Positions 28,992 to 56,803 of a DNA stretch of 64,000 nt are shown one piece after another; the first letter of the stretch is position 1; each line of letters opens with the position of its first letter. The position numbers and the translations under genes were made by a program. Below the pieces are notes generated by a model. That model was given only the letters and a program-made list of their open reading frames with translations, made no database searches and was not told the DNA's origin. The DNA lies in NCBI RefSeq assembly GCF_900117395.1, contig NZ_FPEG01000002.1, positions 186,001 through 250,000 on the forward strand, in the 5' to 3' direction. The DNA comes from Agrococcus sp. Marseille-P2731. Its GTDB lineage: Bacteria > Actinomycetota > Actinomycetes > Actinomycetales > Microbacteriaceae.

Positions 28992-29067
28992 GGGTCTGTG
29001 GCGCAGCTGGTAGCGCACCTGCATGGCATGCAGGGGGTCGGGAGTTCGAGTCTCCCCAGATCCACCA
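28992..29067 (+). tRNA. tRNA-Ala (anticodon GGC), integration target of the island
   Basis: A full cloverleaf can be folded. The acceptor GGGTCTG pairs with CAGATCC (one G-U), the anticodon stem CCTGC/GCAGG encloses the loop ATGGCAT with anticodon GGC, and the T arm is GGGAG-TTCGAGT-CTCCC. Discriminator A is followed by an encoded CCA (29065-29067). The 3' half from 29030 onward is repeated at 56464, so this tRNA was the attachment site of a mobile island. The present 3' end may have been supplied by the island. Confidence 0.97.
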
Positions 29068-29089
29068 ACAACCCCCGTCTGACCGGGGG
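29030..29089 (+). repeat. Left attachment site (attL) of the genomic island
   Basis: A 60-bp direct repeat covering the anticodon-stem 3' side, T arm, acceptor 3' side, CCA and the terminator stem. It matches 56464-56523 at 56 of 60 positions. The two T-stem differences are paired (A-T here, G-C at the right copy), so the tRNA structure is conserved in both. The integrase gene lies inside, 400 bases to the right. Confidence 0.92.
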
Positions 29090-29094
29090 TTTTT
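29071..29094 (+). terminator. Intrinsic terminator of tRNA-Ala
   Basis: Seven-bp stem ACCCCCG/CGGGGGT with loop TCTGAC, followed by a five-T run. The stem is inside the attachment repeat; the right-hand copy lacks the T-run. Confidence 0.85.
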
Positions 29095-29257: not shown

Positions 29258-29494
29258 GTGACCAGCGCCCCATCCGTTCCCACCGGAGTCCTCCTCGTGC
29301 CGATCGACCTGCTCCAGCTCTCGCCGGGCGTCCTCCTACGCGAACGCGACGTGGCCGCTGCCCTCCACATCAGCGTCAAGACGCTGCAACACCACCGGCA
29401 GCGCGGCACCGGCCCCCGCTTCGTCCGGTTGGGCAGGCACGTGCGGTACTACGCCGGCGACGTGGTCACGTGGATCGAGGCGAACCGTGCCTAG
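29258..29494 (+). CDS. xis: Excisionase-like HTH protein (first of four in the island)
   Basis: A small MerR/Xis-type winged-helix protein. The core is LRERDVAAALHISVKTLQHHRQRGTGPRFVRLGRHVRYYAGDVVTWIEANRA: a helix-turn-helix (EVAxxL-xVSxxTL) followed by the wing (GPRFxRLGRxVRY) and the terminal DVxxWI helix. Such proteins control integrase direction. GTG 29258 gives 78 residues and aligns with the start of the second copy at 31383; GTG 29297 is an alternative. The stop overlaps the integrase GTG by eight bases, a standard xis-int coupling. Confidence 0.82.
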   Translation: MTSAPSVPTGVLLVPIDLLQLSPGVLLRERDVAAALHISVKTLQHHRQRGTGPRFVRLGRHVRYYAGDVVTWIEANRA

Positions 29495-30740
29495 GCCACG
29501 ACTCGAGCCGGGCACCTGGGGCGTCATCAGCATCACAACGCTGCCGGGCGGTCGCTACCAAGCGCGCGGGCACTTTCGTGAGCTTGACGGCCGCGACCGC
29601 CGGCCGAGCGCGATCGGGGATACGCCGGAAGCTGCAGAGGCGGCGTTGCGCGCTCGGACGGCGTTCCTCACGCGGGAGGACGCCTATGTCTCCGACCACT
29701 CCACCGTCGACGAGCTGGCGCTCTGGTGGCTCGACCGCAAGCGCTCACTCGGCCCCCTGGCTGCCGGCACGCTCGAGAACTACACCACCGACGCTAAGCA
29801 CGTCGTCGAGCACTTCGGCCAGCTGCGGCTGAGCGAATTGACAAGTGCCCGGTGCGAGACCATCATCCGGACGCTCGCGAAGCGCGACGCGCCGCTGGCC
29901 CGACGAGTGCACAAAACCCTGAAGGCGATGCTCGCCGATGCCGTCCGGATCGACGCGCGCAAGACGAATCCGCTAGCAGCGTTCGCGGCTCCTAGGCTCC
30001 CGAAGCCGGAGATTTACACGCTGGCCCCGGAACAAGCAGCGATCCTGAGCGGGGCGTACCGCGAATGGCTCAGCAAGCGCGACAAGCCCGGTCCCATACC
30101 CGACCCACGAGTCGCGGACATGCTCGACGCGCTGCTCGCCGTGGGGCTCCGGATCGGAGAGCTGCTCGCAGTGCGCCACTGCGACCTGCGCCTCGACGAC
30201 GCCACGCCAACGCTCCGCCTCACGGCGACGCTGACGGACGGCAAGAAGGGCGAGCCGGTCTGGCAGCCGCACCCGAAAGCCGCTCGCCAGCAGCGCACCA
30301 TCGTGCTGCCGGCGCTCGCCGTGACAGCCCTGCGACCGTACGTCGACGGCAGTGCGAGTCGCTCTCCCGTCTTCCCGAACCGACGCGGCGGGTGGACTCG
30401 GCCGGGCAACGTGCGTCGTATCCTCCGCAACTTCCGTGATGAGTGGAGCGAGCCCCTAGAGCGAGCCGGCATCCGGCATGGTCAGGTGACTGCGCACCTG
30501 CTCCGGCGCACGCTGGCCACCCTCATCGCGAACGAGGCGGGGATCTACCGGGCGACGGAACAGCTGGGTCACGCTTCCGTTCTCACGACCGAGCGGCACT
30601 ACGTCACGCCCGCGCCTGTGGTTGGGGAAGCGTCTGCGGCGCTCATCGACTCGCTATTCGCCGTCGACCCGGCTCTGACCTCAGGCGACGGCGACCAAGA
30701 GGTCAAGGATGAAGATGGCGCGGCGCTTGAGCACGGTTGA
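29487..30740 (+). CDS. int: Tyrosine site-specific integrase of the island
   Basis: A 417-residue tyrosine recombinase that integrates the island into tRNA-Ala. An N-terminal arm-binding and SAM-like core-binding region (about residues 1-165) precedes the catalytic domain. Catalytic residues seen are the first Arg in VGLRIGELLAVRHCDL (near 221), the H-x-x-R box in TAHLLRRTLATLI (near 337-340), the second His in LGHASVLTTERHYV (near 361) and the nucleophilic Tyr in RHYV (near 372). It appears complete, so the island may still be mobile if excision sites are functional. A fragment of a close relative lies at 52430. Confidence 0.94.
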   Translation: MPRPRLEPGTWGVISITTLPGGRYQARGHFRELDGRDRRPSAIGDTPEAAEAALRARTAFLTREDAYVSDHSTVDELALWWLDRKRSLGPLAAGTLENYTTDAKHVVEHFGQLRLSELTSARCETIIRTLAKRDAPLARRVHKTLKAMLADAVRIDARKTNPLAAFAAPRLPKPEIYTLAPEQAAILSGAYREWLSKRDKPGPIPDPRVADMLDALLAVGLRIGELLAVRHCDLRLDDATPTLRLTATLTDGKKGEPVWQPHPKAARQQRTIVLPALAVTALRPYVDGSASRSPVFPNRRGGWTRPGNVRRILRNFRDEWSEPLERAGIRHGQVTAHLLRRTLATLIANEAGIYRATEQLGHASVLTTERHYVTPAPVVGEASAALIDSLFAVDPALTSGDGDQEVKDEDGAALEHG

Positions 30741-31721: not shown

Positions 31722-33308
31722 CTACGGGAGTTTGTTCACGACGTAGTCATAGAAACACACGCACTTGATCCAGCCGGTCATGTCGGTCAGCCTTCCCGCG
31801 TCGAGAAGCCCGACGTGCTCGAGCAAGAAAACCCTTAGCGATTGCGGATCGATCTCTCCGGGCTCGAGGAACGGAATGACAAGCAATGCGTCGCTCAGGG
31901 AGGCGCCGGCAATCAAGGCGTCGAGGTCTGGGTACTGAGCGAGTAGGCGTTGCGCACGCTTGTGGAAGTACCCGGTCTCGGAGCCTCGCAGCGGGGTGAG
32001 TCCCACTCGAACTCGCGCCCGGATGCCCTTGCTGACTCGCGCACCCTCCACCAAGGCACCTTCCTCGTCGAGCAAGCCAGCCCCTCGGAGGTACAGGTGG
32101 ATCGGGGCGTGGGTGCGGGCGTTCACAAAAGTGGGCAGTACCTCCTCCACGATCGTCGCGTACTGCTCGGGATCGAGCTGCGGCTCGAGCACGTCGAGGA
32201 GCAGGTCGCGACGTGCGAGCCCCGTGAGCCCCTTTTCTTTTAGGCGGCTTGAGATGCCCACACCAATGACGACATCCACCTGGCTGAGCTCGGTATCCGA
32301 CTCGATATCTGACACCACCACCGTGCCGGACGGTTCGCTGGTGCGCACCAGCTCATAGATCTGATCCACGAGGTGTCGAAGAATCCGCGCGGGGAAGCGA
32401 CGCTTTAGTAGGCCGAGAACCTCGAAGACCTCGAGGAAGTCCGGTGCGGTCACAAGATGTATCGGGATACTCACGCGATCGAGCGCGAAGGTGGAGGGTG
32501 CGATCCGTGGCTTGTCTACCGATGGGTCCCAACTGACAAAGATCAACCGATCCTCGAGCTGGTGGAGGTTCTCGTTGGTCAGGATCGCCGCGATGCTCGT
32601 GACGATGTCGCGCACGTTGTCGTCTGTCAAGGAGTAGCCGATGAAGATGACGGGGTGCTCGACGAAGATAGTGAGCAACTTGGCGGCAAGGTATGGGTTG
32701 CGCTCCCGGAAGAGAGTGAAGTCCTGCGCAGTAATGACAAGCGATTCCGGGTCTGCCACGCTGCCGTGGATCTTGTAGATCTCGGCGACACCACGAGGGT
32801 CCTTGAAGAGCAATCCGTCTTGCCCCACGTACGGGACGAAATCGGGAAACACGTACTCAAGGATCGTGTCGAAGTTGGTGGTGATGATGCCCTCGACGAC
32901 GGCTGAGCGTAACGCTTCCAGTTCGTCGTTGAGGGTGCCCTCCTCCGGCAGAGCATCCACCGCCGACGAAAGTGACTGAGCTACTTCGATCTTGAGAGGC
33001 GATGCGCGTGTACGGGGCGACGGGTACCGCTGGCGACTCTCGGCGAACTCCTCGGCGCTCCACCACAAGTCGTGCAGTTCCTCCGCGATCATCGTCGCCA
33101 CCGTGGGGAGGTCACCGTCGGCGCTGGAGAAGAACTGAGCGTACGGTTTCGATGTCTTCTGCGCGAGCACCGTGAGGAGCTCGGTCCAAGTCGGCGTTCC
33201 CGCGTAGCGCTTCGAGAAGCCGCTTCCGACGAACAGGAAGGGAGCGGTGGGGAAGCGGTTCAGGTGTGCGAATAGCTCGGCTGAGAACTCGGAACGGGGA
33301 GTGGTCAC
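31722..33308 (-). CDS. SIR2-like domain protein, putative NADase defence effector
   Basis: A protein of about 528 residues. The N-terminal SIR2-like NAD-binding fold shows FLFVGSGFSKRYAG (residues 25-38), the TNFD motif in GIITTNFDTILEYVFPDF (near 143), YKIHGSVADP and IFIGYSLTDDNVRDIV (near 223). The C-terminal half (about 290-528) is an unrecognised helical/sensor-like region. SIR2-like NADases deplete NAD+ in several phage-defence systems, so an abortive-infection role is likely but inferred. GTG 33308 overlaps the DUF3223 stop in a GTGA quartet; an in-frame GTG at 33317 would add three residues. A/T-ending codons are more frequent than in host genes. Confidence 0.82.
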   Translation of the reverse strand: MTTPRSEFSAELFAHLNRFPTAPFLFVGSGFSKRYAGTPTWTELLTVLAQKTSKPYAQFFSSADGDLPTVATMIAEELHDLWWSAEEFAESRQRYPSPRTRASPLKIEVAQSLSSAVDALPEEGTLNDELEALRSAVVEGIITTNFDTILEYVFPDFVPYVGQDGLLFKDPRGVAEIYKIHGSVADPESLVITAQDFTLFRERNPYLAAKLLTIFVEHPVIFIGYSLTDDNVRDIVTSIAAILTNENLHQLEDRLIFVSWDPSVDKPRIAPSTFALDRVSIPIHLVTAPDFLEVFEVLGLLKRRFPARILRHLVDQIYELVRTSEPSGTVVVSDIESDTELSQVDVVIGVGISSRLKEKGLTGLARRDLLLDVLEPQLDPEQYATIVEEVLPTFVNARTHAPIHLYLRGAGLLDEEGALVEGARVSKGIRARVRVGLTPLRGSETGYFHKRAQRLLAQYPDLDALIAGASLSDALLVIPFLEPGEIDPQSLRVFLLEHVGLLDAGRLTDMTGWIKCVCFYDYVVNKLP

Positions 33309-34015
33309 GGGGCCCACCCCGAAGCGACGCTTCTGGAGCGGCGGGCTGCCTCAGACGTGCTCGCGATACCGAGGCTCGCATGGCGGTCATGGAAGTCTAG
33401 CCATCTCGCCTCGAGAGCAGGATCGGTGAGGCCACTGCCGATCTGCACTCCTCCGCCGCCGGAGTCGACGTCGATCGCTCGCCAGCCGCCTTCTGTGACG
33501 GCGAAGGCGCTGCTTAACTCCGACCAGCTCGGTCGGAGGTAGATGACTTGCGCGTCGGCTCGCGAAAGCGGCACACCGGTCAAGTCGCTCACGGACGTAG
33601 ATCTAGCCGCGAAGCGCGCGTCGCGGAAGGCCATCCGGCGGCTCTCCGCCGCTAGACGCAGCGCTTCCTTGACCCGCGACTCCTGCGACTCCTGGCGGAT
33701 GGCCGTCCGGTAGCTGAAGTCGACCGTGGTTCCGTCGAGTCGGCGTATCCAGATCCCGACCGCGTCGCTCCTGACAGCCTGCCGGTCGCCGTCGCCTGTT
33801 CGGCCGACGAAGAAGCTGTCTACGCCGGCCCCCCGCTTCTCGGCAGCCTCGGGATGGCGATCGAGCACTTCCATGAGCATCCGATCATGCACAGGATCGG
33901 TGATGTCCTGGTACAAGGCGTACCCCGAGTCGTTCAGGATCGCCCTGAATGCAGCTTCGGCGGCCTTCTTCGACGGCCACGAGAAACTGTCGAGCACTAC
34001 GGGCTGCGAAGCCAT
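33305..34015 (-). CDS. DUF3223 (DCL-like) protein paired with the SIR2 gene
   Basis: A 236-residue protein. Residues 8-105 match the DUF3223/DCL pattern: SFSWPSKKAAEAAFRAIL, then LMEVLDRHPEAAEKRGAG and IWIRRLDGTTVDFSYRTAI. In plants DCL proteins take part in plastid rRNA maturation; bacterial DUF3223 has no established role. The C-terminal 120 residues are unrecognised. ATG 34015 follows GAGGAG by five bases. The stop overlaps the SIR2 start, so both proteins are made together and probably act together, for example as sensor and NADase effector (inference). Confidence 0.75.
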   Translation of the reverse strand: MASQPVVLDSFSWPSKKAAEAAFRAILNDSGYALYQDITDPVHDRMLMEVLDRHPEAAEKRGAGVDSFFVGRTGDGDRQAVRSDAVGIWIRRLDGTTVDFSYRTAIRQESQESRVKEALRLAAESRRMAFRDARFAARSTSVSDLTGVPLSRADAQVIYLRPSWSELSSAFAVTEGGWRAIDVDSGGGGVQIGSGLTDPALEARWLDFHDRHASLGIASTSEAARRSRSVASGWAP

Positions 34016-34693: not shown

Positions 34694-37600
34694 GTGACGA
34701 GCACGCCCATCCCGCTGCCCGATCCAGGTGCGCAGGTGACCATCGACGGTCAGTTGGTCACCGTGATCTCGGCGACACCGACGCTGACCGGCGCCGAGCT
34801 GATTTTCAGCCGCAGCGACGGTTCGCTCGACCGGGCGTCGCTGGATGCCGCCGACCTTGCCCGCGCGCACGTGCCGGTCAACGACGCTGGTGGCCACCCG
34901 GAACGCGCGCTGACCGGGCTGTGGGGCCGGTGGATGCAGTACGCCGTGCCGCGTATCCGCTCGGCGGTGCTGGCAACACGCCCGCTGAAGCCCTTCGCCC
35001 ACCAGGACGAGGCCGTCTTCACCCACATGCTGGCGCAGCCGCGGCTGCGGTTCCTTCTCGCCGATGAGCCCGGTACCGGCAAGACGATCATGACCGGGAT
35101 GTATGTCGCCGAGGGCACTCGGCGCGGCCTGATCCCCGGACAGACTGTCATCGTCGTTCCCGCCCACCTGGTCGAGAAGTGGCGCCGCGACCTGCACCGC
35201 TACTTCGCGATCGAGGCCGACCGGCTCACCCCCGAGCTCGCCCGCGACCCGAAGGAGCTCGACCCGCGGGTCAGCGTATGGGTCGTCTCGGTGGACCTGT
35301 TCACGTACAACAACGACGTGCGCCGCAAGGTCGCCGGCGCCCGCGCCTCCTGGTCGCTGGCCGTCTTCGACGAGGCGCACCGCCTCACCCCGACGTCGCA
35401 GTACCTCACCGCCGCTCGTGAACTGTCGGTGCGCACCCATCACCTGCTGCTGCTCACCGCCACGCCGCACCGCGGCAAGGAGCACTTCTTCCGCGGCTTG
35501 CTGAACCTGCTCGACCCGACGCTCTACCCCTGGGATCCGCGGCAGACCGAGTACGACAACGCGCTGCGCCCAAGCACCCTGTCCTTCCTGCGCCGCATGA
35601 AGGAGGAGCTCAAGGACCTCGAGGGGCGCCCGCTGTTCCCGCCGCGGTACGCCGAAACCGTTCAGGTCGACCTCACCGGTCCGGAGGAGGCCGCCTACAC
35701 CGCGGTCATGGACTACGTCGACGCCTTCTACGGTGAGAACGCCACCCTGGCCCGGTCGATCTACGGCAAGCGCGCCGCCTCCTCGATCGTCGCGGCCGCC
35801 GCCACTATCCGCCGCCGTGAGGAGGCGCTGCGCGGCCCGGCCAGCGGCCGCACCGACGCGCCCGTCCCCGAGGAGTTCGTCGGCGTCGGCGCCGACCTGG
35901 AGTTCGAGGTCGCGGACGACGACGCCTGGCAGCGCGCCGAGGAAACGGTCGTCGGCGCCCGCAGCCGGAACAAGGGTGAGGAGCTCGACCGGATCGGCGC
36001 GGTGCTGGACACCCTGAAGCAGGCGGCCGCCGAGCAGCCGACGAAGTGGCGGCTGGCCTGCGAGCTGATGGGCAAGCACGGCATCCGTCCCGGTGAGGGC
36101 CAGCTGCTGGTGTTCACCGAGTTCGCCGACACCGCCCGTTGGCTGGCCGGCGAGTTCGCCGCCGCCGGGTTCACCGTCGACACCCTCGAGGGCGCCGTCG
36201 GCCATCGTGAGCGCGACCAGCTGCAGCAGCGCTTCCTCGACGGCCAGTTCCAGGTGCTCGTCAGCACCGATGCCGGCGGCGAGGGCATCGACCTGCAGTC
36301 CGCGCACGTGATGCTCGACTGGGACATCCCATGGTCGCTGGTCCGCCTGGAGCAGCGGATGGGCCGGCTGCACCGCATCGGTCAGAAGAACGCCGTGCAC
36401 ATCTACCACCTGGTCGCCCCCGCTACCCGCGAAGGCCGCGTCCAGGAGGTCATGCTGCAGAACCTGGAGACCGCCGGGCAGTCCCTCGGCGGCCGGATCT
36501 TCGACCTGCTCGACGCCACCGCTGCCCGCGCCGGGTTCGACTACGGCCGTGCCCTCGTCGAGGCCCAGCGCGGTACCGCGGTGCAGGTGTCAGTGCCTGA
36601 CGCGCAGGAGCTCCTCGACGTCGCCCGCGAGCTGGTCGCCGACGAGGACCGGTTGCACACCCCGGCCAACACCGCCGAGGCGGTGGCCCGTTTCCGCGCT
36701 GACCGGCTCGAGGCGATCAACCCGGTCATCGTCGACGCGTTCGTCGACCAGCTGGCCCGCGCCCGGACCTGGGCGCTGGGTCCAGGCCCGGCGAAGGGCA
36801 TCCGCGAGGTCAGCGCCCGGGTTCCGCTCCCGCCCGCACTCGGCGGCGGACTCGAGCGGCTCATCGCCGCCGACGGCGCCTCGGTGCGTCAGGCGATCAA
36901 CGACGGCGCCCAGGGCCTCGACGACGTCGTGGTCCTCGGCCCGACCGAGGAGCCGTTCGCGGAGCTGGTCGACCTGGCCTTGACCGCGGGAGAGACCGAG
37001 CTCATCCGCGGCACGGAGCTGATCGACACGGCCGCGCTGACCGGCTACACGCTGCTCATCTACGACGGTGAGGTCGAGGCCCACGACGGCGTCCGCCGGC
37101 ACCGCCGCAAGGCGCCGCTGCTCATCCGGTTCTCCGGGGCCGGTGCGTTCGAGATCGGCTGGGAATCGCTGATGACCCTGCGCCCGGACACCACCGGCAC
37201 CCCTGCGGCGGCGTCCTTGCCGCCCGCGGTGCGCACCGAGGGCATGACCCAGGCGCAGACCGCACTCACCCGTGAGGTCGAGCGTGTCCGCACCGAACGG
37301 AGCGCCTGGGTGGTGAAGGCCCGTGAGCAGCTTGACCAGGTCGAGTACCGCTACCTCGACGAGCTCGACGAGCTGCCGGCCGGCATCCGCCGCGAGCGGC
37401 GCGAGGCCTTCGCCGCGCTCAAGGCCGAGCGCCTGCGGCAGCTGGAGGACATCGGCAAGGTCACCGGCACCGCCCCGCGGCTCATAGGCTGGGCGCAGGT
37501 GGCCGCCGGCGCTCGCAGCGCGGAACTCGGCTACGACCCCGACAGCGAGAAGGCTGCCATCACCACCGTGCTCGAGGAGCTGGAGCGGCTGGGCTACGTC

Positions 37601-37918
37601 GTCGACGACCGGCAGACCGCCGGTGTCGGCTACGACCTGTTCGCCCGTCACAAGCACACCGGTGAGCAGCGGCTGGTCGAGGTCAAGGGCTTCCAGGACG
37701 GGCTCATGCCGGTGTGGCTGGAGCAGCACGAGTGGGCGCAGGCCCAGCAGCGTGGCGAGGACTACTGGCTGTACGTGGTCACCAACTGCGGGACCGCGCC
37801 TACGGTCGCTCTCCGCGCACAGGACCCGGCCGGCCAGCTGGCCGCCGGTCCCCGGCGCATCGAACGGTTCCAGATCAAGGTCACCGACCTGAAGCGACTG
37901 ATGAAGGACGACGAGTGA
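34694..37918 (+). CDS. SNF2-type helicase with C-terminal DUF3883 nuclease-like domain
   Basis: A 1074-residue DNA translocase, first gene of a three-gene operon. Two RecA-like lobes carry Walker A ADEPGTGKT (K130), the DEAH box FDEAHRLTP (226-229), the motif III-like LLLLTATPHRGKEHF, and motif VI LEQRMGRLHRIGQ (554-564). The C-terminus is DUF3883, with a PD-(D/E)xK-style arrangement: D981 in GYDLFA, then E996-V-K998 in VEVKGF. It is DrmD/BrxHII-like in layout. GTG 34694 follows GGAGAGGA. Codon use is more GC-extreme than in the flanking SIR2 genes, so the operon probably has a different origin. A role in restricting phage DNA is inferred. Confidence 0.9.
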   Translation: MTSTPIPLPDPGAQVTIDGQLVTVISATPTLTGAELIFSRSDGSLDRASLDAADLARAHVPVNDAGGHPERALTGLWGRWMQYAVPRIRSAVLATRPLKPFAHQDEAVFTHMLAQPRLRFLLADEPGTGKTIMTGMYVAEGTRRGLIPGQTVIVVPAHLVEKWRRDLHRYFAIEADRLTPELARDPKELDPRVSVWVVSVDLFTYNNDVRRKVAGARASWSLAVFDEAHRLTPTSQYLTAARELSVRTHHLLLLTATPHRGKEHFFRGLLNLLDPTLYPWDPRQTEYDNALRPSTLSFLRRMKEELKDLEGRPLFPPRYAETVQVDLTGPEEAAYTAVMDYVDAFYGENATLARSIYGKRAASSIVAAAATIRRREEALRGPASGRTDAPVPEEFVGVGADLEFEVADDDAWQRAEETVVGARSRNKGEELDRIGAVLDTLKQAAAEQPTKWRLACELMGKHGIRPGEGQLLVFTEFADTARWLAGEFAAAGFTVDTLEGAVGHRERDQLQQRFLDGQFQVLVSTDAGGEGIDLQSAHVMLDWDIPWSLVRLEQRMGRLHRIGQKNAVHIYHLVAPATREGRVQEVMLQNLETAGQSLGGRIFDLLDATAARAGFDYGRALVEAQRGTAVQVSVPDAQELLDVARELVADEDRLHTPANTAEAVARFRADRLEAINPVIVDAFVDQLARARTWALGPGPAKGIREVSARVPLPPALGGGLERLIAADGASVRQAINDGAQGLDDVVVLGPTEEPFAELVDLALTAGETELIRGTELIDTAALTGYTLLIYDGEVEAHDGVRRHRRKAPLLIRFSGAGAFEIGWESLMTLRPDTTGTPAAASLPPAVRTEGMTQAQTALTREVERVRTERSAWVVKAREQLDQVEYRYLDELDELPAGIRRERREAFAALKAERLRQLEDIGKVTGTAPRLIGWAQVAAGARSAELGYDPDSEKAAITTVLEELERLGYVVDDRQTAGVGYDLFARHKHTGEQRLVEVKGFQDGLMPVWLEQHEWAQAQQRGEDYWLYVVTNCGTAPTVALRAQDPAGQLAAGPRRIERFQIKVTDLKRLMKDDE

Positions 37919-40695
37919 CCAACAACGAGGCCGCACAGGCGACTGCCGCAACGGGCAGTACCGGCACGGTGGGGGACATGCGTGAGCGGCTGATCGACCA
38001 CTGGTTCCCCTGTGCCGACGTCGATGCCGCCGTCGGCACGACCGCCGGTTCCGGCCGCAGCGAGAAGGCGCTGTTCACCTGGTTCGCCTCCCGTCCGATC
38101 GCGCAAGCTCGAGCGGCCGTGCTGGCCACACTGGCCCCGGCTGAAGACGGCGCGAAGGACCTGGTCCGGGCTGCGGTGCGCCACGGTGACCGCGCGGCCC
38201 TGGAGGATCTCAGCGCGCGCATCCGCAACGCCTATCCGGCTGGGCGTCCCGTCGTGCTCGACATCTTCTCCGGCCGGGGGATCATCCCGCTTGAGGCCGC
38301 CCGGCTCGGCGTGACCTCCGTCGGTACGGACCTGAGCCCGGTCGCCACCCTGGGCGGCCGACTGCTGGCCGACTATCCGATGCGCGACTGGAGCGACGAG
38401 CTGCCACTGCCCTTCAAGCCCGCCGGCGACACGGCCCGCGAAGGGCTGTTCGGCGAGGACGAGCCCCGCCTCGTCGCCGACGTCCGCACGGTCCTCGCCG
38501 AGGTGGAGCAACGCGTCGCCGATGCCGTGGCCGACTTTTACCCGAAGGCCGCCAACGGCCGCTTCCCCTGGGCCTACCTGTGGGCGGTCACCATCCCCTG
38601 CGACAACTGCCGCCGGCGTTTCCCGCTGGTGGGCAGCATGCGTCTGCAGTTCCCCTCCGGCCGCGACGGCGACCTCGGGCAGTCGCTGCTGCTGATCGCC
38701 GACGGCGACCGGTGGCGCAGCGAGGTCATCGACGGCGCGCCGACGCAGGAACCCACCTTCTCCGCCGCCGCCGGCCGCAAGGGCAAGAGCGCCCGGTGCC
38801 TGTTCTGCGGACACGTGCACAGCCTGGACTCCGTCAAGGGGAAGGGCTTCGCCGGTCAGTACGAGGACGCACTGCTCGTGGTCGGCGAGGAGAACGAGGG
38901 GCTCGGCAAGACCTTCCGCGTGCCGCGTCGGGACGAGATCGACGCCGCGGCCCGCGTCGACCTCGTCACCCTCCCGCCGGTCGGCAACATGCCCGCCGTC
39001 CCCGACGAGCCCATTCCGGCTGGCAACCAGGACACCATCCGGGCCAGCGGCTACGGCTACCGCACCTACGGGGACCTGATGAACCCCCGCCAAACGTTGC
39101 TGTTCGCCGAGACCACACGCGCGATCCGTGCCGTGCACGCGGACTTGCTGGCCGCGGGAGCGTCCACCGACTACGCCGCGGCGCTGGCCGGGTACGCGAC
39201 CGCCAACCTGCAGCGCCGGCTTCGCAGGTCTACGCGGGGAGCGAAGCTGGCCGCCTTTGGCGGCAATGCCACTCGCAAGGGCACCTGGGTGCAGGTGCAC
39301 GACATCTTCGCCGACGAGAGCAAGGTCTCCTTCCAGTTCGACTACCTCGAGTCCGGCCCGGGGACCGGTCCTGGCACCTGGGACAGCGTGACCGGCAGCG
39401 GCCTGCAGGCCCTGAAGAAGGTCATCGCCGAGTCGCCCAACGCGGCACCCGGCCGCTTCCGCCGCGCGTCAGCGGTCGCCCTGCCCTTCCGCGACGGCAC
39501 CGTCGACGCGGTGGTGTGCGATCCCCCGTACTACAACATGATCGACTACGGAGACGCCTCCGACCTGTTCTACGTCTGGCTCAAGCGCTGCCTGGCCGAC
39601 GTGATGCCCGACCTGTTCGGCGGTGTCGGCGTGCAGGACAAGACCGACGAGATCATCGTCAAGCGCGGAAACGCCCCCGGTGAGCACCGCACCCGCGAGT
39701 TCTATGAGCAGATGCTCGGTCGCGCCTTCGCCGAGGCAAAGCGTGTCCTGCGGGCGGATGGCCGCCTTGTCGTCGTCTTCGGCCACTCCGACCCCGACGC
39801 TTGGCTTCGGCTGCTCGGCGCGCTGCGCGACGCCGGGTTCGTCGTCACCAGCTCCTGGCCCTCGCGCACCGAGACGTCCAACACCGGCGTCGCCAGCATC
39901 AAGGTCACCGTCACCATCGGCTGCAGGGTTGCCGCACCGCAGCGGCCGATCGCCACCGTCGCCCAGGTCGACCGCGAGGTCACATCCGCAGTCAAGGCCG
40001 CGGTGCGCCAGTGGGACGCCGACGGACTGGCACTCACCGACCAGCTCATGGCCGCCTACGGACCGGCGATGGAGGTCTACGGCCGCTACAGCAAGGTGCT
40101 GTCCCCCGGAGGCGAAGAGGCCGGCCTGGACCGCTACCTCACGCTGGCCCGCGCCGCGGTCCGGGACGCGACCGCCCTCAAGCTCGACCAGCTGCCGCTC
40201 GAAACCTTCGACGCGCCCACCCGCTTCGCAGTGTTCTGGCAGCGTCTCTACGGCCGCACGGACGTCCCGAAGGGCGAGGCCCGATTCCTCGCGCAAGCCG
40301 ACAACCTGCGGCTGGAAGAGCTGCGCGGGGCGCTGCTGACCGAGAGCAAGGGTGGCTTCAAGTTGCGGCTGGACGCCCCCGATGCAGTCAGCGACCGGTC
40401 CTCGCACTTCGAGGTCGCGCGGGCGATGGCCAAGGCCTGGGACAACGGCGGCACCGAGGCCGTCGCAGGCGTCATGGCCACCGCCGACCGGCAGCCCAAC
40501 GACGCCCACCTGTGGGCCATCGTCGCCGAGGTCGTCCGGCAGCTGCCGACCAGCGACCCGGTTGCGAAGGCCCTTACGGCGGTCCAGCGCAACGCCGGAA
40601 CCATTGGAACCATGATCGAGTACGTGGCCGCAGCGGCCGCGGCAGATTCGGACGCGCGGGCACAGCTCACGCTGTTCGGGGAGGACCTGGCGTGA
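37915..40695 (+). CDS. DUF1156 adenine-specific DNA methyltransferase
   Basis: A 926-residue N6-adenine methylase of the DUF1156/PglXI-like class. The N-terminal DUF1156 region is RLIDHWFPCADVDAAV ... EKALFTWFASRPIAQARAAV. SAM-binding motif I is VLDIFSGRGIIPLEAARLG (D116). Two CxxC zinc-ribbon pairs (C229/C232 and C295/C298) are inserted in the core. Catalytic motif IV is DPPYYN (D536-Y539). The C-terminal 250 residues are a helical extension. GTG 37915 overlaps the helicase stop (GTGA), so they are coupled. It probably marks host DNA to protect it from the partner helicase-nuclease; target sequence unknown. Confidence 0.9.
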   Translation: MTNNEAAQATAATGSTGTVGDMRERLIDHWFPCADVDAAVGTTAGSGRSEKALFTWFASRPIAQARAAVLATLAPAEDGAKDLVRAAVRHGDRAALEDLSARIRNAYPAGRPVVLDIFSGRGIIPLEAARLGVTSVGTDLSPVATLGGRLLADYPMRDWSDELPLPFKPAGDTAREGLFGEDEPRLVADVRTVLAEVEQRVADAVADFYPKAANGRFPWAYLWAVTIPCDNCRRRFPLVGSMRLQFPSGRDGDLGQSLLLIADGDRWRSEVIDGAPTQEPTFSAAAGRKGKSARCLFCGHVHSLDSVKGKGFAGQYEDALLVVGEENEGLGKTFRVPRRDEIDAAARVDLVTLPPVGNMPAVPDEPIPAGNQDTIRASGYGYRTYGDLMNPRQTLLFAETTRAIRAVHADLLAAGASTDYAAALAGYATANLQRRLRRSTRGAKLAAFGGNATRKGTWVQVHDIFADESKVSFQFDYLESGPGTGPGTWDSVTGSGLQALKKVIAESPNAAPGRFRRASAVALPFRDGTVDAVVCDPPYYNMIDYGDASDLFYVWLKRCLADVMPDLFGGVGVQDKTDEIIVKRGNAPGEHRTREFYEQMLGRAFAEAKRVLRADGRLVVVFGHSDPDAWLRLLGALRDAGFVVTSSWPSRTETSNTGVASIKVTVTIGCRVAAPQRPIATVAQVDREVTSAVKAAVRQWDADGLALTDQLMAAYGPAMEVYGRYSKVLSPGGEEAGLDRYLTLARAAVRDATALKLDQLPLETFDAPTRFAVFWQRLYGRTDVPKGEARFLAQADNLRLEELRGALLTESKGGFKLRLDAPDAVSDRSSHFEVARAMAKAWDNGGTEAVAGVMATADRQPNDAHLWAIVAEVVRQLPTSDPVAKALTAVQRNAGTIGTMIEYVAAAAAADSDARAQLTLFGEDLA

Positions 40696-43652
40696 CCACC
40701 AACAACTCCGCCCAGCACTGGGCGGACATCCTCGAGCTGCGGCCCGAGGTCCGTGCCTCCGACGGGTCAGTCGGCGAGCTGCAGATGAGCCTGCACAAGG
40801 CCGTCTACCAGACCGTTGACGTGCTCTACCGCAAGGTCGAGTACTACGGCGACATCACCGAACCCACCCCCAACCTGGTCGGCTTCTTCGCCCGGGTCGC
40901 CCGCCGGCTGGGCACCACCGCCGACGCGCCGGCGCTGTTCCACCTCGACCAGGGCATGGGTGGCGGTAAGAGCCACGCGCTGGTCGGGCTGTTCCACATG
41001 GCCAACAGCCCCGAGGGCTTCTTCGCCACCGATCTGGGCCAGCAGGTGTACGCCGAGGCCGCCCGCGGAACCGGCGAGGTCGACCTCACCGACGCGGTCA
41101 CCGTCACCCTCACCGCGGACTACTTCAGCCCCGGCGCCACCAACGAGGTGTTCGGCCCGGCCACCAACCTGTTCGAGCGGTTCATCTGGGCGCTAGTCGG
41201 CGGCAACATGGACCGCTACCAGCGCTACGTCGCCGCCGGACCGAACAAGGGCACCCTGCAGCAGGCGCTGAGCGAGACCAACCGGCCGGTCCTCATCCTG
41301 CTCGACGAGCTCATGGACTACGTCATGGCGCTCGCCGACGCGGCCCACATCGCCACGATGCCGAGCGAGAAGGCGTTCCTCAACGCGCTGATGGACGCCT
41401 GCGACGACGTGCCGCGGGTGGCGTTCGTCGTCGTGATGATCCGCTCCGAACTCGACGAGCGCGGCTACTCGCCGGCGGCGGTGGACTTCCGCGACTACGT
41501 CGCCGCCCGCCTGGTCCGCAACGGCCAGACCGTCGCCGTCACCGAGGCGCAGGACTTCTCCGCCATCATCCGCCGGCGGCTGTTCGAGCTCTCCGACGCT
41601 GAGCTGCCCCTCCGGGACCTGACCCGCCGGGTCACCGCCGCCGCCGACGATGCCTGGAAGCACCAGGTGCTCGACAAGCTGGGCGCCAACCGTGGTCTGC
41701 CCGGGTTCGAGGAGCGGGTGACGGCCAGCTACCCGTTCCACCCGGAGTTGATGCGCCTGGTCCGCGAGGAATGGTCGCAGGTCTCCGGCTTCCAGCGGGT
41801 CCGCTCGACCGTCGCCATCTTTGCTCGCACCGCGCTGCACTGGGTCACCGAGCACAAGGCCGGCCGCTGGGCGCCGCCGCTGATCGGCGTCGGTGACATC
41901 CCGCTCACCGTCGCCCTGGAGCAGCTGCTGTCCTCCGGCCTGCTGCTGGGCAACGACCGCGCCATCCAGGGCTACCGGGCCGTGGCCAACACCGACGTCA
42001 CCAGCACCGACGGACAGAGCGGTCGTGCGGTGAACGTCGACGCGGTGCTGCGGCGAGACGGCGTCACCGTTGGCCAGCCGGCACCCGCAGTCCGGATGGC
42101 TACCGCCCTGCTGTGCTACTCGATCGTGAGCCGGGGACAGGGACGCCGCGGCGCCACGAAGGCCGAGCTCATGCTCGCCATCTTCGAGCCAGCTGGTGCC
42201 CTGGCGCCGTACCCGGCGGCCGAAGAGGTCTTCAACAAGCTCACCGGCGACGAGGGCCTCGGTGCCCTCGAGGTCACCACCCCCACCAACGCACCGGCCC
42301 GCTACCACCTGTCGATCAAGCAGACGCTGCGCATGTACTTCACCGCGGCGGCAGCCGTCGTCCCGCCGGAGGCCCGCGGCGAGCTGGTGTGGGAGCAGGC
42401 GCAGAAGCTCGCGTCGAAGGGCGTCTTCGACAACCTCGTGACGGTCGACATGCCCACCGGCGAGGAGCCGCTGGAGACGACCTTCGACGGCGTCGACAGC
42501 AACGAGACCCGGCTGGTGCTGCTGGACCCACGGCGCTGGACGCTGCTCAACGGCAAGGACTCCGCGAGCCGGGAGGACATCACCGCCCTGCTCGGGCTCG
42601 GTGACCACCCGCTGCGGGTGGACAACGCCGCCAGCTGCGTCATCGCCTGCGTCAACACCCAGCGCCGGGACATGGCGTTCAAGCGCGCCGCGGAGGTGCT
42701 CGCCTGGCGTGAGGTCATCAAGCAGCTCTCCGCCGACACCGAGGACGACCTGAAGGAGGCGAACGCCAAGCACGACGAGGCGCTGAAGAAGCTGCGCCGC
42801 GACATCGAGCGGGCCTACCAGCACTACGCCTACCTGGTCCGCGCCGGCGAGCTGCACGTGGAGTACAAGCGGTTCGACGAGGACAGCCGCACCGCGCTCA
42901 ACGGCGGCCACGTCTGGACCGCGCTCGTCGACGCCGGCCGCGCGACCCAGCCTGCCGGGCTGGGCGCCGGCTACCTGGCCGCGCTGCTCGGCGAGTTCGA
43001 CCGGGCACTCACCCCGCGGGAGATCGTGCAGGCCTTCTACAAGAACCCGGCCTTCCCGCTGGTGCCCTCCACTGACGAGATCCGCCGCGTGCTCTACGAG
43101 CTGATCACCGGCGACTGGGAGCTCGTTGACACCGACGGCAACCGCCTCGCCGTGGCGGGCCCCGCACAGATTTCGATCAACTCCATCAACCAGACGCTGC
43201 GCCGCCGGCAGCCCGACCTTGTGCCGCCCGCCCCGACTCCCGGCAGTGGCGACCAGCACGGGGACGGCCACCAGCCTGGCGGTGATGGTCAGCCCACCGG
43301 AGGCGACGACGACCAGCTTCCGTTGCCCGGTGGGAGCCAGTTGCCCGGTGGTGGCGGCGGCGGCCAGCAGCCGGGACGCACACCCCCGGCGCCGCCCGCC
43401 CCCGGGCCGACGGTCTACAAGCGGTACCGGATGCAGCTGAGCAACAAGAGCATCACCGGTGCGGACGCCCGTGAGCAGGCCTGGCAGCTGCTCCAGGAGC
43501 TGCGGAAGGTCATTGACCCGGCGAACCCGGCCGATCACCAACTGCTCACCCTGGACCTGACCCTGGTCACCGCCGACGGGCAGCAGGGCGCCATCGAGGC
43601 GAAGGCGCAGGCGTTCGGCGCGCAGGTCATCGTCGAGGACGACGACTTCTGA
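40692..43652 (+). CDS. DUF499 AAA+ ATPase (BrxC/PglY-like)
   Basis: A 986-residue ATPase, third gene of the operon, coupled by GTGA to the methylase. Walker A is QGMGGGKSHAL (K93) and Walker B is VLILLDELMDY (D205, E206). Conserved DUF499 features include AVTVTLTADYFSP, the arginine-rich VVMIRSELDERGYSP and SYPFHPELMRLVREEW. A Gly/Pro/Gln-rich linker (about residues 840-905) separates a small C-terminal domain beginning YKRYRMQLSNKS. DUF499 proteins accompany DUF1156 methylases in type 3 BREX-like and other defence loci. PglZ, BrxA and DrmABC partners are absent here. Confidence 0.9.
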   Translation: MTTNNSAQHWADILELRPEVRASDGSVGELQMSLHKAVYQTVDVLYRKVEYYGDITEPTPNLVGFFARVARRLGTTADAPALFHLDQGMGGGKSHALVGLFHMANSPEGFFATDLGQQVYAEAARGTGEVDLTDAVTVTLTADYFSPGATNEVFGPATNLFERFIWALVGGNMDRYQRYVAAGPNKGTLQQALSETNRPVLILLDELMDYVMALADAAHIATMPSEKAFLNALMDACDDVPRVAFVVVMIRSELDERGYSPAAVDFRDYVAARLVRNGQTVAVTEAQDFSAIIRRRLFELSDAELPLRDLTRRVTAAADDAWKHQVLDKLGANRGLPGFEERVTASYPFHPELMRLVREEWSQVSGFQRVRSTVAIFARTALHWVTEHKAGRWAPPLIGVGDIPLTVALEQLLSSGLLLGNDRAIQGYRAVANTDVTSTDGQSGRAVNVDAVLRRDGVTVGQPAPAVRMATALLCYSIVSRGQGRRGATKAELMLAIFEPAGALAPYPAAEEVFNKLTGDEGLGALEVTTPTNAPARYHLSIKQTLRMYFTAAAAVVPPEARGELVWEQAQKLASKGVFDNLVTVDMPTGEEPLETTFDGVDSNETRLVLLDPRRWTLLNGKDSASREDITALLGLGDHPLRVDNAASCVIACVNTQRRDMAFKRAAEVLAWREVIKQLSADTEDDLKEANAKHDEALKKLRRDIERAYQHYAYLVRAGELHVEYKRFDEDSRTALNGGHVWTALVDAGRATQPAGLGAGYLAALLGEFDRALTPREIVQAFYKNPAFPLVPSTDEIRRVLYELITGDWELVDTDGNRLAVAGPAQISINSINQTLRRRQPDLVPPAPTPGSGDQHGDGHQPGGDGQPTGGDDDQLPLPGGSQLPGGGGGGQQPGRTPPAPPAPGPTVYKRYRMQLSNKSITGADAREQAWQLLQELRKVIDPANPADHQLLTLDLTLVTADGQQGAIEAKAQAFGAQVIVEDDDF

Positions 43653-43790: not shown

Positions 43791-44138
43791 ATGACGGCAC
43801 GTGAGCGCGCGCGAGTCATCGCCCGCGAGCGTGCGTTGCTGGTCGTGGGCTACTCAATGCGCGATGAGCACATCAACGTCGCCATCACTCGCTGGCTTAA
43901 CGAGAGGGAGGAGCGCGAGATCACGATTGTCGATCCCGGATTCTCTGACGGCGAAAAGGGCTCGTTCCCCTACCGACTGAAGAACGCGGCAGTCAAGTGG
44001 ATCTACGAAGACCAGCGCGAGGACCGACTCATTGCCCTTCGCGTTCGGCGCGAGTACGCACGAGACGCGCTCTTGAAGAGAGGCTTCTGGGAGGGAGACC
44101 TGTACCCGCAGTCGCCGCAGTATGGGCGTCCGCGTTAG
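43791..44138 (+). pseudogene. SIR2-like protein, C-terminal fragment
   Basis: A 115-residue ORF starting MTARERARVIARERALLVVGYSMRDEHINVAITRWL. The GYSMRDEHIN motif is the last conserved block of the SIR2-like fold in defence proteins, so the N-terminal NAD-binding part is missing. No upstream remnant is found between the preceding terminator and this start. It is probably a decayed defence gene, but a functional short protein cannot be excluded. It is not a duplicate of the SIR2 gene at 31722, whose corresponding block reads GYSLTDDNVRD. Confidence 0.65.
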
Positions 44139-44602: not shown

Positions 44603-45166
44603 ATGCGCCCGTTCTTGCTCCTCGCCACTGCGACGCCCGCTCCGACCGCGCCCGCCCCGACCGGGGACGCAGGCACTGACGCCTGGGTCACACCGGTCGT
44701 GGCGCTGCTGTCGGTGCTGCTCGGCAGTGCCGTCGCCCCCTTCTTCATAGAACTCTGGAAGCGCGTCCTGGACGATTGGAGGATGGTGCGAGCCGAGCGA
44801 AGGGCCGGTGTCGAGCGGATCCTGGCTGCGGCTCTCGACCTGATGGACGCGGACCGCGAGGATCACGAGGCGTTCAGCAGAGCGAAGAAGCGTCTCATCA
44901 CCGCGATCCACACTCTCGACCTCGGCGACGAGGAGTGGGGGAAGACTTCGGGTGTCCAGGGCCGTCTGCTCGCGTGCGTCAGCCTGGCGGATGGGGCCGA
45001 CCCTGCTATCGATCCCTATGTGAATCTCTATGGCGACCTCATGCGACTCCGGCGCATCATCGCGAAGCCTGACAGGTCTGTCAAAATCACCGATGAGATC
45101 CATGCCTCGCTGAGGAAGTCGCTGGAAGAGGACACGGCGAAGATCACCAGCGACAGCAAGGCCTAG
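44603..45166 (+). CDS. Hypothetical membrane-anchored protein
   Basis: A 187-residue protein. ATG 44603 begins MRPFLLLATATPAPTAPAP. One transmembrane segment (WVTPVVALLSVLLGSAVAPFFIELW, about residues 28-52) is followed by a 135-residue charged helical cytoplasmic part without known motifs. The 3' end overlaps the 3' end of the IS481 pseudogene frame. It may be a membrane-bound defence accessory, but nothing in the sequence shows this. Confidence 0.6.
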   Translation: MRPFLLLATATPAPTAPAPTGDAGTDAWVTPVVALLSVLLGSAVAPFFIELWKRVLDDWRMVRAERRAGVERILAAALDLMDADREDHEAFSRAKKRLITAIHTLDLGDEEWGKTSGVQGRLLACVSLADGADPAIDPYVNLYGDLMRLRRIIAKPDRSVKITDEIHASLRKSLEEDTAKITSDSKA

Positions 45167-45207
45167 TGACAGGTGGCGCACGATGCCCGCGCTCCAGATG
45201 TACCGAG

Positions 45208-46000
45208 TCACAGGGTTGGAGACAGTACGGCTGCGGGCGGGAGCCCGTAGCTGGAGTAGATCCGTTCAGTGTGTAGTGCTCTAGCCCGGGTGCAAGCGCG
45301 TCGTGTCGGTCCTGGTTGCCGGTGAACAGCTGCCTGTAGGCCCATTCGGTAGCGAGCGTGCGGTTGAAGCGCTTCGCCTTGCCGTTCTGCCATGGGCAGT
45401 GGGGCTTGATGAACAGCTGGGCGGCGCCGAGCGAGGCGACCGCGTCGATGAACGCCCGGGAGTGGCGGTAGGCGAACGCGTTGTCTGAGATGACCTGCTC
45501 GATGCGTTCGATCCCGCGGCTGGCGAAGTAGGCGGCGGCGCGGCTGAGGAAGGCGGCAGCGGTGGCGCCCTTCTCGTCGGGGAGGACTTCGGCGTAGGCG
45601 AGGCGGCTGTGGTCGTCGACGGCGGCGTGCACGTCGCAGTAGCCGATGCCGTGGCCGCGGACCTCTTCGGACCGGCCGTGGACTCGCCAGCCGCCGCCGT
45701 CGGGGATACGACCGAGCCTCTTCACGTCGACATGGACCAGCTCGCCCGGGCGGGACCGTTCGTATCGGATCCCGCTCGCCCGGCTCGCGCGGATCGGCTG
45801 GCCCGGGATCTGGTCGCAGGCCGACAGCGGCGGGACGCCGTGCCGCTCCAGGATCCGAGAGATCGTGCGGGGAGGGACTCCGGTCGCCGCCGCCAGCCGC
45901 AACGGCCGCCCCTGCCGCAGCGCGCGCGCCTCGAGCGCGGCGACCTCACGATCATGAGTCGTGCGGTGCGGAGACCATTTAGGGCGCCTCGTCCGGTCGA
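45208..46000 (-). pseudogene. IS481-family transposase, truncated, frameshifted and catalytically altered
   Basis: Clear IS481 DDE integrase similarity: RPGELVHVDVKRLGRIPDGGG, AAVDDHSRLAYAEVLPDEKG and VISDNAFAYRHSRAF. The N-terminal HTH is missing. The catalytic Glu in the usual NGKVERFN block is replaced by Lys (NGKAKRFN, codon at 45372-45374). A frameshift near 45265 moves the conserved ending (TERIYSSYGLPPAAVLSP) into another frame. The element is therefore dead three times over. At about 46000 it abuts a truncated xis-like gene, which looks like a deletion junction. No terminal inverted repeats are recognised. Confidence 0.88.
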
Positions 46001-46005
46001 AGCGC

Positions 46006-46186
46006 ACCTCGGCGCCGCCGGCGCGGAATCGCCGGGCACGATGGTGGATCCCGAGTTCCACAGCGCACTGCTCGGCGTCTCCGTCAAGCCCCTCCGCACT
46101 TGGCGCGATGACCGAAGCCGATGCGCTACGCGCGCATGGTCAAGTACAAGGACGGTGAGGTCACGGAGCAGGACGACGAGGACTGA
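46006..46186 (+). pseudogene. Excisionase-like gene remnant (third copy)
   Basis: Similar to the xis-like gene at 31383 but missing the first 10-15 codons, with a small deletion/frameshift. SPGTMVDPEFHSALLGVSVKPLRTWRDD is read in one frame and MRYARMVKYKDGEVTEQDDED in another, ending at TGA 46186. No start codon remains. It joins the decayed IS481 at its 5' side. Confidence 0.82.
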
Positions 46187-54128: not shown

Positions 54129-54287
54129 GGAGTCAGGAGTCCGCACAGGAACAGTGTGCCCGAAGCCCTTGGGAACCGAACCCACTCGTCAGGAACTCGA
54201 CGCGTTCGGCGCTCGAAGTCGTTCGTGCGCTTGGCGGCATCAATGCGCAGGAGAAGTCAAGCCCTCGCAGCGCCGCGCGAGGTGTCC

Positions 54288-55366: not shown

Positions 55367-56463
55367 CCATTTCCCCTCAATCAGCCGGTCGGCCCATTCG
55401 GGTGGGCGCGCTTCCCACGGACACTAGCGCGAATATCTGCCTCGCTTGACCTTCGACTTCGTCTTACCCGATGTGCGTTGCTCGATGAGTCCTTGCGCAG
55501 CGCGTCATGGCCGTGGTGGTCAGTCTTCGTGTCCACGCCGTCAGTCTGGTGCTTGTCATACGGCAGCGCAGGGGCGTCGCGATCAGGCTGAGGCAGGTCG
55601 AGAACGCCTGGAGCTTACGCTTGCCATCGTCAGTGATTGACAGCATGTCGTGCCCTATCGCTAGACCGGCTCGTCGGTCGTTATCGACCGGCATCCACAT
55701 GACCCCGTGCTTCTCGTAAGCACAGCGATCGGGTCACACTGCTTGTCGTCGTGGTGGCCGAGCCGCTCTAGACCGCAGAGTCTGCCATGCCGTAGCGAAT
55801 GTCCTCGCCAGCCCGACAACGGGCATAGAGCCTTGTCAACGTCCCTTCGCAGCTCGCAAGGGCGGGCGAAACGCGGTGGGCAGACCCGCGTTGACCAGGG
55901 GGGCAAGCGAAACGCGGTTGCAGTTTGTCGCGTCGTGGGATCCGCAAGCTCCGCCCGGTCGGTTTGTGCTGAGCGGCGACCGAGGTGGCCACAAGCCGAT
56001 AGATCGCCGCGATCTTCAGCGACGAGGGATCGTGCTGCCCAAATACTGCACTCGCTTCGCGGGAAGTCGCGGGCTGAGGGGCCCAGCGTGCGGCTGCACG
56101 GCTTTGTCAGCCAGATCGGGCGCTCGCCGGCCATGCCGGTCGCGAGCGCTTGGTCAATCGAGCTTGCGAGCGTGTTCTAGCGCGGCCAGCCGTTCGGTCA
56201 CCGATTGCGGACCGACCATCCGTCGAGCCGGTGCAACGCGGAGACAGGGCTGTATTCGGCGCTGCCCTGCAGGCGAGGAGGGCGGTCGCTGTCGATTCCG
56301 AAGAGAGGCCCTCGTGCTGCGCATCGGCCGAAATAACGAGCGGAGAAGGTGTCCAAGAATGTGTCCACTTTGAGCGGGATCGGGCGGGATCGTGTAGGCA
56401 TGGGTGGGGGAGAACGGGCCCGAAACCGGCGGAAAGTAGCGGAATATGACAGTCGAACAGCAG
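55367..56463. other. Right end of the island, no supported genes
   Basis: About 1.1 kb with only short or implausible frames. A 12-base direct repeat (GCGAAACGCGGT) occurs near 55866 and 55909. A short minus-strand reading from 55700 (MWMPVDNDRRAGLAIGHDML) has coding-like composition for about 35 codons and may be a gene remnant. The stretch ends at attR. Confidence 0.45.
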
Positions 56464-56523
56464 GCAGGGGGTCGGGGGTTCGAGTCCCCCCAGATCCACC
56501 AAGAACTCCCGTCTGACCGGGGG
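56464..56523 (+). repeat. Right attachment site (attR) of the genomic island, partial tRNA-Ala
   Basis: A 60-bp copy of the tRNA-Ala 3' half, CCA and terminator stem, with four differences from attL (29030-29089). The T stem reads GGGGG/CCCCC here versus GGGAG/CTCCC at attL, a compensatory pair change. No 5' half of a tRNA precedes it, so it is not a gene. Downstream sequence is host chromosome. Confidence 0.92.
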
Positions 56524-56803
56524 ATTGGCATCTCCACCGAAGCGAACGCAGCGCGGATCGACACCTACGCGCGTTCGCATGGCATGCTGCCCGCGACATG
56601 GTCTCGCTCGGCATCCACCTCAGACATCGGCGCGGTTGGCTGGAACGGGTTGCCCGTGCCCGGTAGGGGCTGTTGTCGATCTGCTTCCACCAGCGACGAC
56701 GAGCCCCCTGCCCCTCTGCCGAGGTGGCGGGGAACTGCTCGTGCTCACGGAGACGCCGAGGCGCGCACGCGCACCGGGCGGGCTCCAGCGCCAGGCGCGC
56801 GCC

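Follow-up and report, generated by a model that had tools for sequence, protein, structure and literature searches.

A locus read as a complete Hma (Type-1 BREX-related) system on a probable tRNA-Ala island of Agrococcus sp. Marseille-P2731, with a candidate target-recognising block in its methylase

We analysed a stretch of 64,000 nucleotides from the genome of Agrococcus sp. Marseille-P2731 (contig NZ_FPEG01000002.1, positions 186,001 to 250,000; hereafter the window) and conclude, with a probability of about 0.9, that three of its genes constitute a complete Hma (Type-1 BREX-related) system lying on a probable island in a tRNA-Ala gene, for which we propose a mechanism of marking and cutting DNA. 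The locus is thereby settled as an ordinary, complete system rather than a BREX or DISARM locus stripped of parts. This kind of system is already known, since the literature on Hma, Type-1 BR and SNF2-DUF3883-DUF499 systems describes the same architecture; a modest addition to the known family is that the recognition part, in the methylase, seems to be swapped between some relatives, the rest staying the same.

The three-gene operon and its products

The genes hmaA, hmaB and hmaC (Table 1) are open frames on one strand, joined at both junctions by 4-base GTGA overlaps, and in all three frames the third-position G+C far exceeds that of the second position. A scan of a genome collection recovered five close relatives (loci L005-L009, from Curtobacterium, Pseudonocardia, two Micromonospora and a Frankiales MAG), each carrying the trio in unchanged order, likewise with 4-base overlaps. 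Identity to the Agrococcus proteins is 82-95% for HmaA, 64-97% for HmaB and 79-93% for HmaC, the first HmaA residues of L006, L007 and L009 being taken in these alignments from the match and not from a usual start codon. Given the codon-position contrast and the frames kept in all five relatives, we regard the trio as real genes. An earlier note, made from the letters of this DNA, had described three large GTGA-coupled genes over 34694-43652 and had placed motif residues at K130, D981, E996-x-K998, DPPY and K93; the frame coordinates and overlaps confirm the former, and every residue lies where it had been placed. It had further closed the operon with a terminator stem. The hairpin itself is strong, with 15 stem pairs and a 78-base stretch folding at -49.9 kcal/mol (z -4.2; 0/200 shuffles as good); its role as a terminator is likely rather than proven, because no T-run stands behind the stem and the hairpin is absent from the list of the intrinsic-terminator scan.

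Table 1. Features of the hma locus, its island and the flanks shared by two relatives (window coordinates unless a locus is named)
Feature	Position	Strand	Description
Probable integrative island	29026-56526		27.4 kb; tRNA-Ala site, integrase, att repeats, several defence-like genes
tRNA-Ala	28992-29067		
Probable attL	29026..29092	+	3' part of tRNA-Ala and 25 bases beyond
Tyrosine-type integrase (Phage_integrase)	29487..30740	+	PF00589 4.2e-11; just inside the island
SIR2 protein PDC-S25	31722-33317	-	PADLOC, 3.9e-147
DUF3223 HamC2-like	33305-34015	-	PADLOC HamC2, 4.7e-89
hmaA	34694..37918	+	GTG start, 1074 aa; SNF2-family helicase with C-terminal DUF3883/NOV_C PD-(D/E)xK nuclease domain
hmaB	37915..40695	+	926 aa; DUF1156-type adenine-class DNA methylase
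hmaC	40692..43652	+	986 aa; DUF499 AAA+ ATPase without HEPN domain
Hairpin after hmaC	43666-43680/43695-43709	+	15-pair stem; probable terminator without T-run
115-aa ORF	43791-44138	+	C-terminal half of SIR2_2 only (positions 76-140 of 141), just below cut-off
rve-type (integrase core) transposase gene	45144-46061	-	between the hma operon and other defence genes
PDC-M09B candidate	50021-51571	+	PADLOC, 4.3e-153
PDC-S54-like	52791-54185	-	PADLOC, partial match, 5.9e-26
Probable attR	56460..56526	+	direct repeat of attL
Micromonospora flanking genes in common, L007	762-3557, 13054-17922		
Micromonospora flanking genes in common, L009	767-3562, 13007-17967		

HmaA couples a motor with Walker A (K130 in GTGKT) and DEAH (226-229) motifs to a C-terminal NOV_C (DUF3883) domain at 952-1038 (Pfam, 6.9e-18, alongside SNF2-rel_dom and Helicase_C), in which D981 lies in GYDLF and is followed by E996-V-K998. 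Its best helicase match in PADLOC is HmaA (9.4e-89; model positions 100-656 of 1176); it also matches the BrxHI/BrxHII and DrmD models (9.7e-67, 1.4e-62), the DrmD score of 242.5 bits being under the cut-off of 610. When its profile was compared with solved structures, SNF2 enzymes, RapA and other helicases were recovered, and in the best 60 of the 144 matches only the motor part was involved. The nuclease triad (D, E-x-K) is kept in all 21 helicases that we examined, namely those of the window, the five close relatives, ten distant loci and five plasmid loci, and NOV_C is present in the helicases of all ten distant loci with a full trio.

HmaB contains an AdoMet motif (FSGRG at 118), a 4-Cys ribbon (C229/C232/C295/C298) and DPPY at 536, a motif typical of N6-adenine and N4-cytosine enzymes; the ribbon cysteines and DPPY are invariant in all six proteins of the window and its close relatives. 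The insert with the four-cysteine Zn finger thus sits between the AdoMet motif and DPPY, behind an N-terminal DUF1156 region whose Pfam match is weak (2e-4, 21.8 bits against a cut-off of 24). Pfam returned further methylase signals, among them N6_N4_Mtase just below its cut-off. HmaB matches the PADLOC HmaB model at 5.5e-54 (model positions 139-869 of 973) and the PglXI model far more poorly (1.3e-6), and its profile gave one weak match to a solved structure, MitM (0.0046). HmaC has Walker A (K93 in GGGKSH) and Walker B (LLDEL at 203) motifs and a tail that is variable from about 740. It matches DUF499 in Pfam (6e-12) and PADLOC HmaC at 1.5e-32 (model positions 57-669 of 941), and in the PADLOC search at E 0.001 it matches only HmaC and DUF499 models; comparison of its profile with solved structures gave no match at E 0.01.

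Relation to Hma, BREX and DISARM systems

The best PADLOC matches of the three proteins are the three parts of a single system, Hma (HmaA/HmaB/HmaC), and since these profiles are matched only in part, the Agrococcus system is a divergent member. The profile search against BREX, DISARM and NCBIfam models that the earlier note had suggested gave the same answer: PADLOC Hma came out best, with the NCBIfam anti-phage models far below their cut-offs. Hma was named by Payne et al. (2021; PMC8565338) for 1,638 three-gene operons from 26 phyla, with the same helicase-methylase-ATPase organization as here, covered in part by the profiles. There HmaB is termed an m5C methylase, whereas the Agrococcus HmaB has DPPY; PADLOC's own table labels HmaB a DNA-adenine methylase. 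Rakesh and Krishnan (2026; PMC12839542) gave the group a new name, DUF499-centred BREX-related (BR) systems; their Type-1, found in 2446 taxa, is made up of this trio alone and has no PglZ. They report a C-terminal PD-(D/E)xK domain on the Type-1 helicase in 79% of taxa, an N-terminal HEPN domain on the ATPase in 1370 of the 2446 taxa and none in the rest, helicases with a Tudor domain and an inactive REase, and an RRM at the ATPase C-terminus. They also cite a later experimental study, in Halomonas (Liu et al., 2024), which by their account confirmed a phage-defence role of the helicase. The Agrococcus locus shares with this type the DUF499 ATPase, the DUF1156-type methylase with insert and 4-Cys ribbon, the SNF2 helicase with a fused C-terminal PD-(D/E)xK domain (assigned here by the motif within NOV_C) and the lack of PglZ (PMC12839542), and differs in that its ATPase is without the N-terminal HEPN. 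As in this type, the locus is tripartite, in the window and in all five close relatives.

Earlier descriptions of such operons also exist. Anantharaman et al. (2013; PMC3710099) noted that in HEPN-DUF499 operons the SNF2 helicase carries a fused DUF3883, "a novel REase domain"; these restriction-modification operons have the same helicase fusion and DUF499 partner as ours, which lacks the HEPN. Bell et al. (2020; PMC7641849) described a COG1743-DUF499-SNF2-nuclease operon in archaea. Type 3 BREX, as treated in PMC12839542, has in common with the Agrococcus system a BrxHII-like helicase, a PglXI-like methylase and a BrxC-like ATPase; here, by contrast, no PglZ, BrxA or BrxF stands alongside, and the helicase has its own nuclease motif. 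As regards class 1 DISARM, its SNF2 helicase DrmD is a relative of HmaA, and no DrmA, DrmB or DrmC was found among the flanking ORFs scanned. Type-2 BR was examined by its DUF3780 gene, its HKD nuclease on the helicase and the NCBIfam DUF1156, DUF499 and phospholipase-D-helicase models: NF042962, NF042963 and NF042964 reached 57.6, 92.8 and 113.7 bits against cut-offs of 1200, 1000 and 1100, the locus has no fourth gene, and DUF3780 was matched in 0 of 13 genomes, in a search whose control was likewise silent.

The lack of PglZ or DISARM partners had been presented in the earlier note as an oddity, a view that does not stand, because the stand-alone trio is the defining form of Hma/Type-1 BR (PMC8565338; PMC12839542). 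The lack as such is borne out, none of 13 flanking ORFs of the window scanned being a BREX or DISARM part by PADLOC. It could alternatively be explained if a type 3 BREX or class 1 DISARM locus had degenerated here by loss of PglZ/BrxA/BrxF or DrmA/B/C, and the matches of the helicase to BrxHI/BrxHII and DrmD would agree with this. Yet HmaA is the better helicase match, and HmaB and HmaC favour Hma and DUF499 models. The survey of gene neighbourhoods likewise revealed a conserved unit of just three genes: beyond the trio, the window has no flanking gene in common with any of the five relatives (the comparison covered about 4 kb upstream and 6-10 kb downstream of the operon, the relatives' ORFs being pre-filtered by codon-position G+C), so that nothing common to them has been lost here, such as the extra core genes whose loss the earlier note had considered. 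The MZB family (PF09369), which we take to be the marker of DISARM DrmB, was not found in the genome, in a search with its control positive in 8 of 14 genomes. PglZ, expected in a Type-3 BR or type 3 BREX locus, is absent from the locus in the window. The only PglZ-like stretch of the genome lies about 330 kb from the operon and is marginal (23.9 bits alone and 25.3 with neighbours, against a cut-off of 25; 65 of 179 positions); across 13 genomes, PglZ is matched at E 0.001 in 10 and over cut-off in 5, with this marginal one counted, and in no case within the fetched loci. On the evidence of the relatives' flanks and the genome searches for PglZ and MZB, we reject the degenerate origin as extremely unlikely.

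Divergence of the HmaB N-terminal half and a proposed mechanism

Comparison of the close relatives pointed to an uneven distribution of differences along HmaB. In residues 1-515, stretches of 40 columns are only 19-78% identical between the Agrococcus protein and that of L006, L007 or L008, with the exception of 121-160 around the AdoMet motif (85-92%); in 516-908 the identity is 72-100%, save for one such stretch at 40% against L007. Between L007 and L009, the two Micromonospora loci, dS is 1.43 in HmaB 1-515 against 0.33 in 516-926, 0.19 in hmaA and 0.20 in hmaC. Similarly, in the four pairs that compare the window and L005 with L006 and L008, the fraction of same-amino-acid codons that differ is 0.47-0.48 in the block, 0.28-0.31 in the second half of hmaB and 0.24-0.34 in hmaA. 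As silent sites diverge as well, the block is not merely a product of fast protein change. One version of the block is common to the window and L005, and likewise one to L006 and L008; in these two block-sharing pairs the most diverged stretch is instead the tail of hmaC, at about 738-966, which includes a Gly/Pro-rich linker that aligns badly.

We scanned synonymous codons for the most divergent segment in all 15 pairs, which are not independent of one another (an earlier third-position scan had covered 4 of the 15). In 13 pairs the best segment lies at least partly within the first 590 codons of hmaB, starting in five of these within the last 56 codons of hmaA; in the other two it falls in the hmaC tail. 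Eight pairs reach 0/200 shuffles and seven do not; of the eight pairs in which L007 or L009 is compared with a different group, seven give weaker results (6 to 53 of 200 shuffles), as expected near saturation. The block pattern is faint or missing in some of the pairs.

Taken together, HmaB about 1-515, which contains the AdoMet motif as well as the Zn-ribbon insert and stops close to DPPY, looks to have been exchanged as a unit between some relatives, and is probably the target-recognising block. As the block appears swapped between some relatives, with only small differences in HmaA and HmaC, target choice would most likely reside in HmaB alone, for marking and restriction alike. This fits a restriction-modification machine with target choice in one swappable module. 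More tentatively, we put forward a fuller scheme, which is less likely than not to hold: one recombining HmaB cassette (about 1-515) would set the target of both marking and restriction, the ATPase and helicase-nuclease being target-blind, and a second cassette in the HmaC tail (about 740-966) would set some other property, for example trigger sensing or escape from phage inhibitors. That specificity in BREX lies in the PglX methylase has already been published (PMC11341690), and the word "recombination" occurs nowhere in the main text of PMC12839542; we made no wider literature search and claim no priority for block exchange in Hma. The block pattern offers a cheap test of where Hma systems hold their sequence specificity, and L007 and L009, with nearly the same helicase and ATPase and a different N-terminal half of HmaB, are a natural pair for locating it.

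We propose that HmaB methylates adenine in a target read by its N-terminal half and so would mark host DNA, as its DPPY, AdoMet motif and Zn-ribbon insert suggest. By analogy to BrxC, HmaC, an ORC/Cdc6-like AAA+ ATPase, may assemble a DNA-scanning complex with HmaB. Should this complex encounter incoming phage or plasmid DNA with unmarked target sites, the SNF2 motor of HmaA would move along the DNA, and its DUF3883 PD-(D/E)xK domain, the motif of which is present, would then cut it. A compact methylation-plus-helicase-nuclease defence with DUF3883 as the predicted cutter, as first put forward in the earlier note, is the best reading of the sequences and agrees with the literature.

Two other arrangements of the same parts were weighed against marking and cutting. 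In one, the methylase would serve maintenance or regulation, and HmaA and HmaC would remodel DNA or abort infection without cutting, for example by blocking replication initiation. DUF499 is indeed related to the ORC/Cdc6 replication-initiation ATPases, and interference with the replication of foreign DNA has been suggested (PMC7641849); however, retention of the nuclease triad in 21/21 helicases is unexpected if cutting were dispensable, and we consider this arrangement quite unlikely. In the other, of type IV-like modification-dependent character, marked phage DNA would be attacked and the methylase would not act in self-protection. The Tudor domain on published Type-1 BR helicases is a possible reader of such marks (PMC12839542), and EVE readers accompany some archaeal relatives (PMC7641849), but none of the close relatives lacks the methylase, and the part that looks exchanged is its N-terminal half with the Zn-ribbon insert. 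These observations make the type IV-like arrangement very unlikely, and marking of host DNA with cutting of unmarked DNA remains our preferred reading.

The island, distribution and HEPN status

The operon is carried on a probable integrative island in the tRNA-Ala gene (Table 1). Its putative attL and attR form a 67-base imperfect direct repeat (61/67 equal), on which the att claim rests; an exact 16-base repeat is weak evidence alone, as repeats at least that long occur in 7 of 186 control windows of equal length. G+C drops to 0.62-0.69 over much of the island, except at the hma genes. Upstream of the operon, the DUF3223 and SIR2 (PDC-S25) genes overlap by 13 bases on the same strand, and this pair (31722-34015) is possibly a two-gene defence operon; no HamA or HamB is among the matches listed for the ORFs scanned, and in the five examined of 71 SIR2-matching plasmid records no DUF3223 product is annotated beside SIR2, with unnamed genes near. 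The 115-aa ORF directly after the hma operon is a probable remnant of another SIR2 gene. The PDC-S25, DUF3223 and SIR2-remnant neighbours were considered as parts of the system and rejected, none of them matching the flanking ORFs of L005-L009. Among the whole set, the two Micromonospora loci are the sole pair with flanking genes in common on both sides of hma, 87-97% identical.

hmaC is matched in 3 of 60 genomes near the window's and in 11 of 148 genomes of the class (its own counted in both), and in 0 of 23 other genomes of the genus. This patchy presence and the neighbouring defence-like genes were counted in favour of the Hma defence reading. In 10 of 13 distant loci the full trio lies within the fetched stretch; the incomplete ones have methylase and ATPase (L035), the ATPase only (L033) or a decayed ATPase tail (L034). 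hmaB occupies two separate frames in L026, and the helicase of L027 is encoded on the opposite strand. The five top-ranking of 103 matching plasmid records all show the helicase-methylase-ATPase order.

The domain scan revealed an N-terminal Swt1-like HEPN on 11 of 12 distant ATPases (9 of the 10 from full trios, together with L033 and L035) and none on the window's HmaC, the L028 ATPase or the five plasmid ATPases; the ATPases of L005-L009 align end to end with the HEPN-less HmaC of the window. In a tree of 23 rows, namely the window, L005-L009, five plasmid rows, 11 HEPN-bearing rows and L028, the window, L005-L009 and the plasmid rows group together as a single clade without HEPN (100/100), separate from the 11 HEPN-bearing ATPases. 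L028, with unsure placement, joins close to these by a very long branch, and long branches make deeper placement in this tree unsafe in general.

Two loci show decay of hma genes. In genome G188, L034 (8549-9036, minus strand) retains only a decayed HmaC tail close to that of the window, 74% identical over 43 residues with one internal stop. In L037 (254-8953), on a plasmid of Rhodococcus rhodochrous, two IS256 genes that share a protein accession break up the helicase, whose DUF3883 part has a gene annotation of its own, and apparently the methylase too, the methylase remnant being annotated as hypothetical and assigned by its place.
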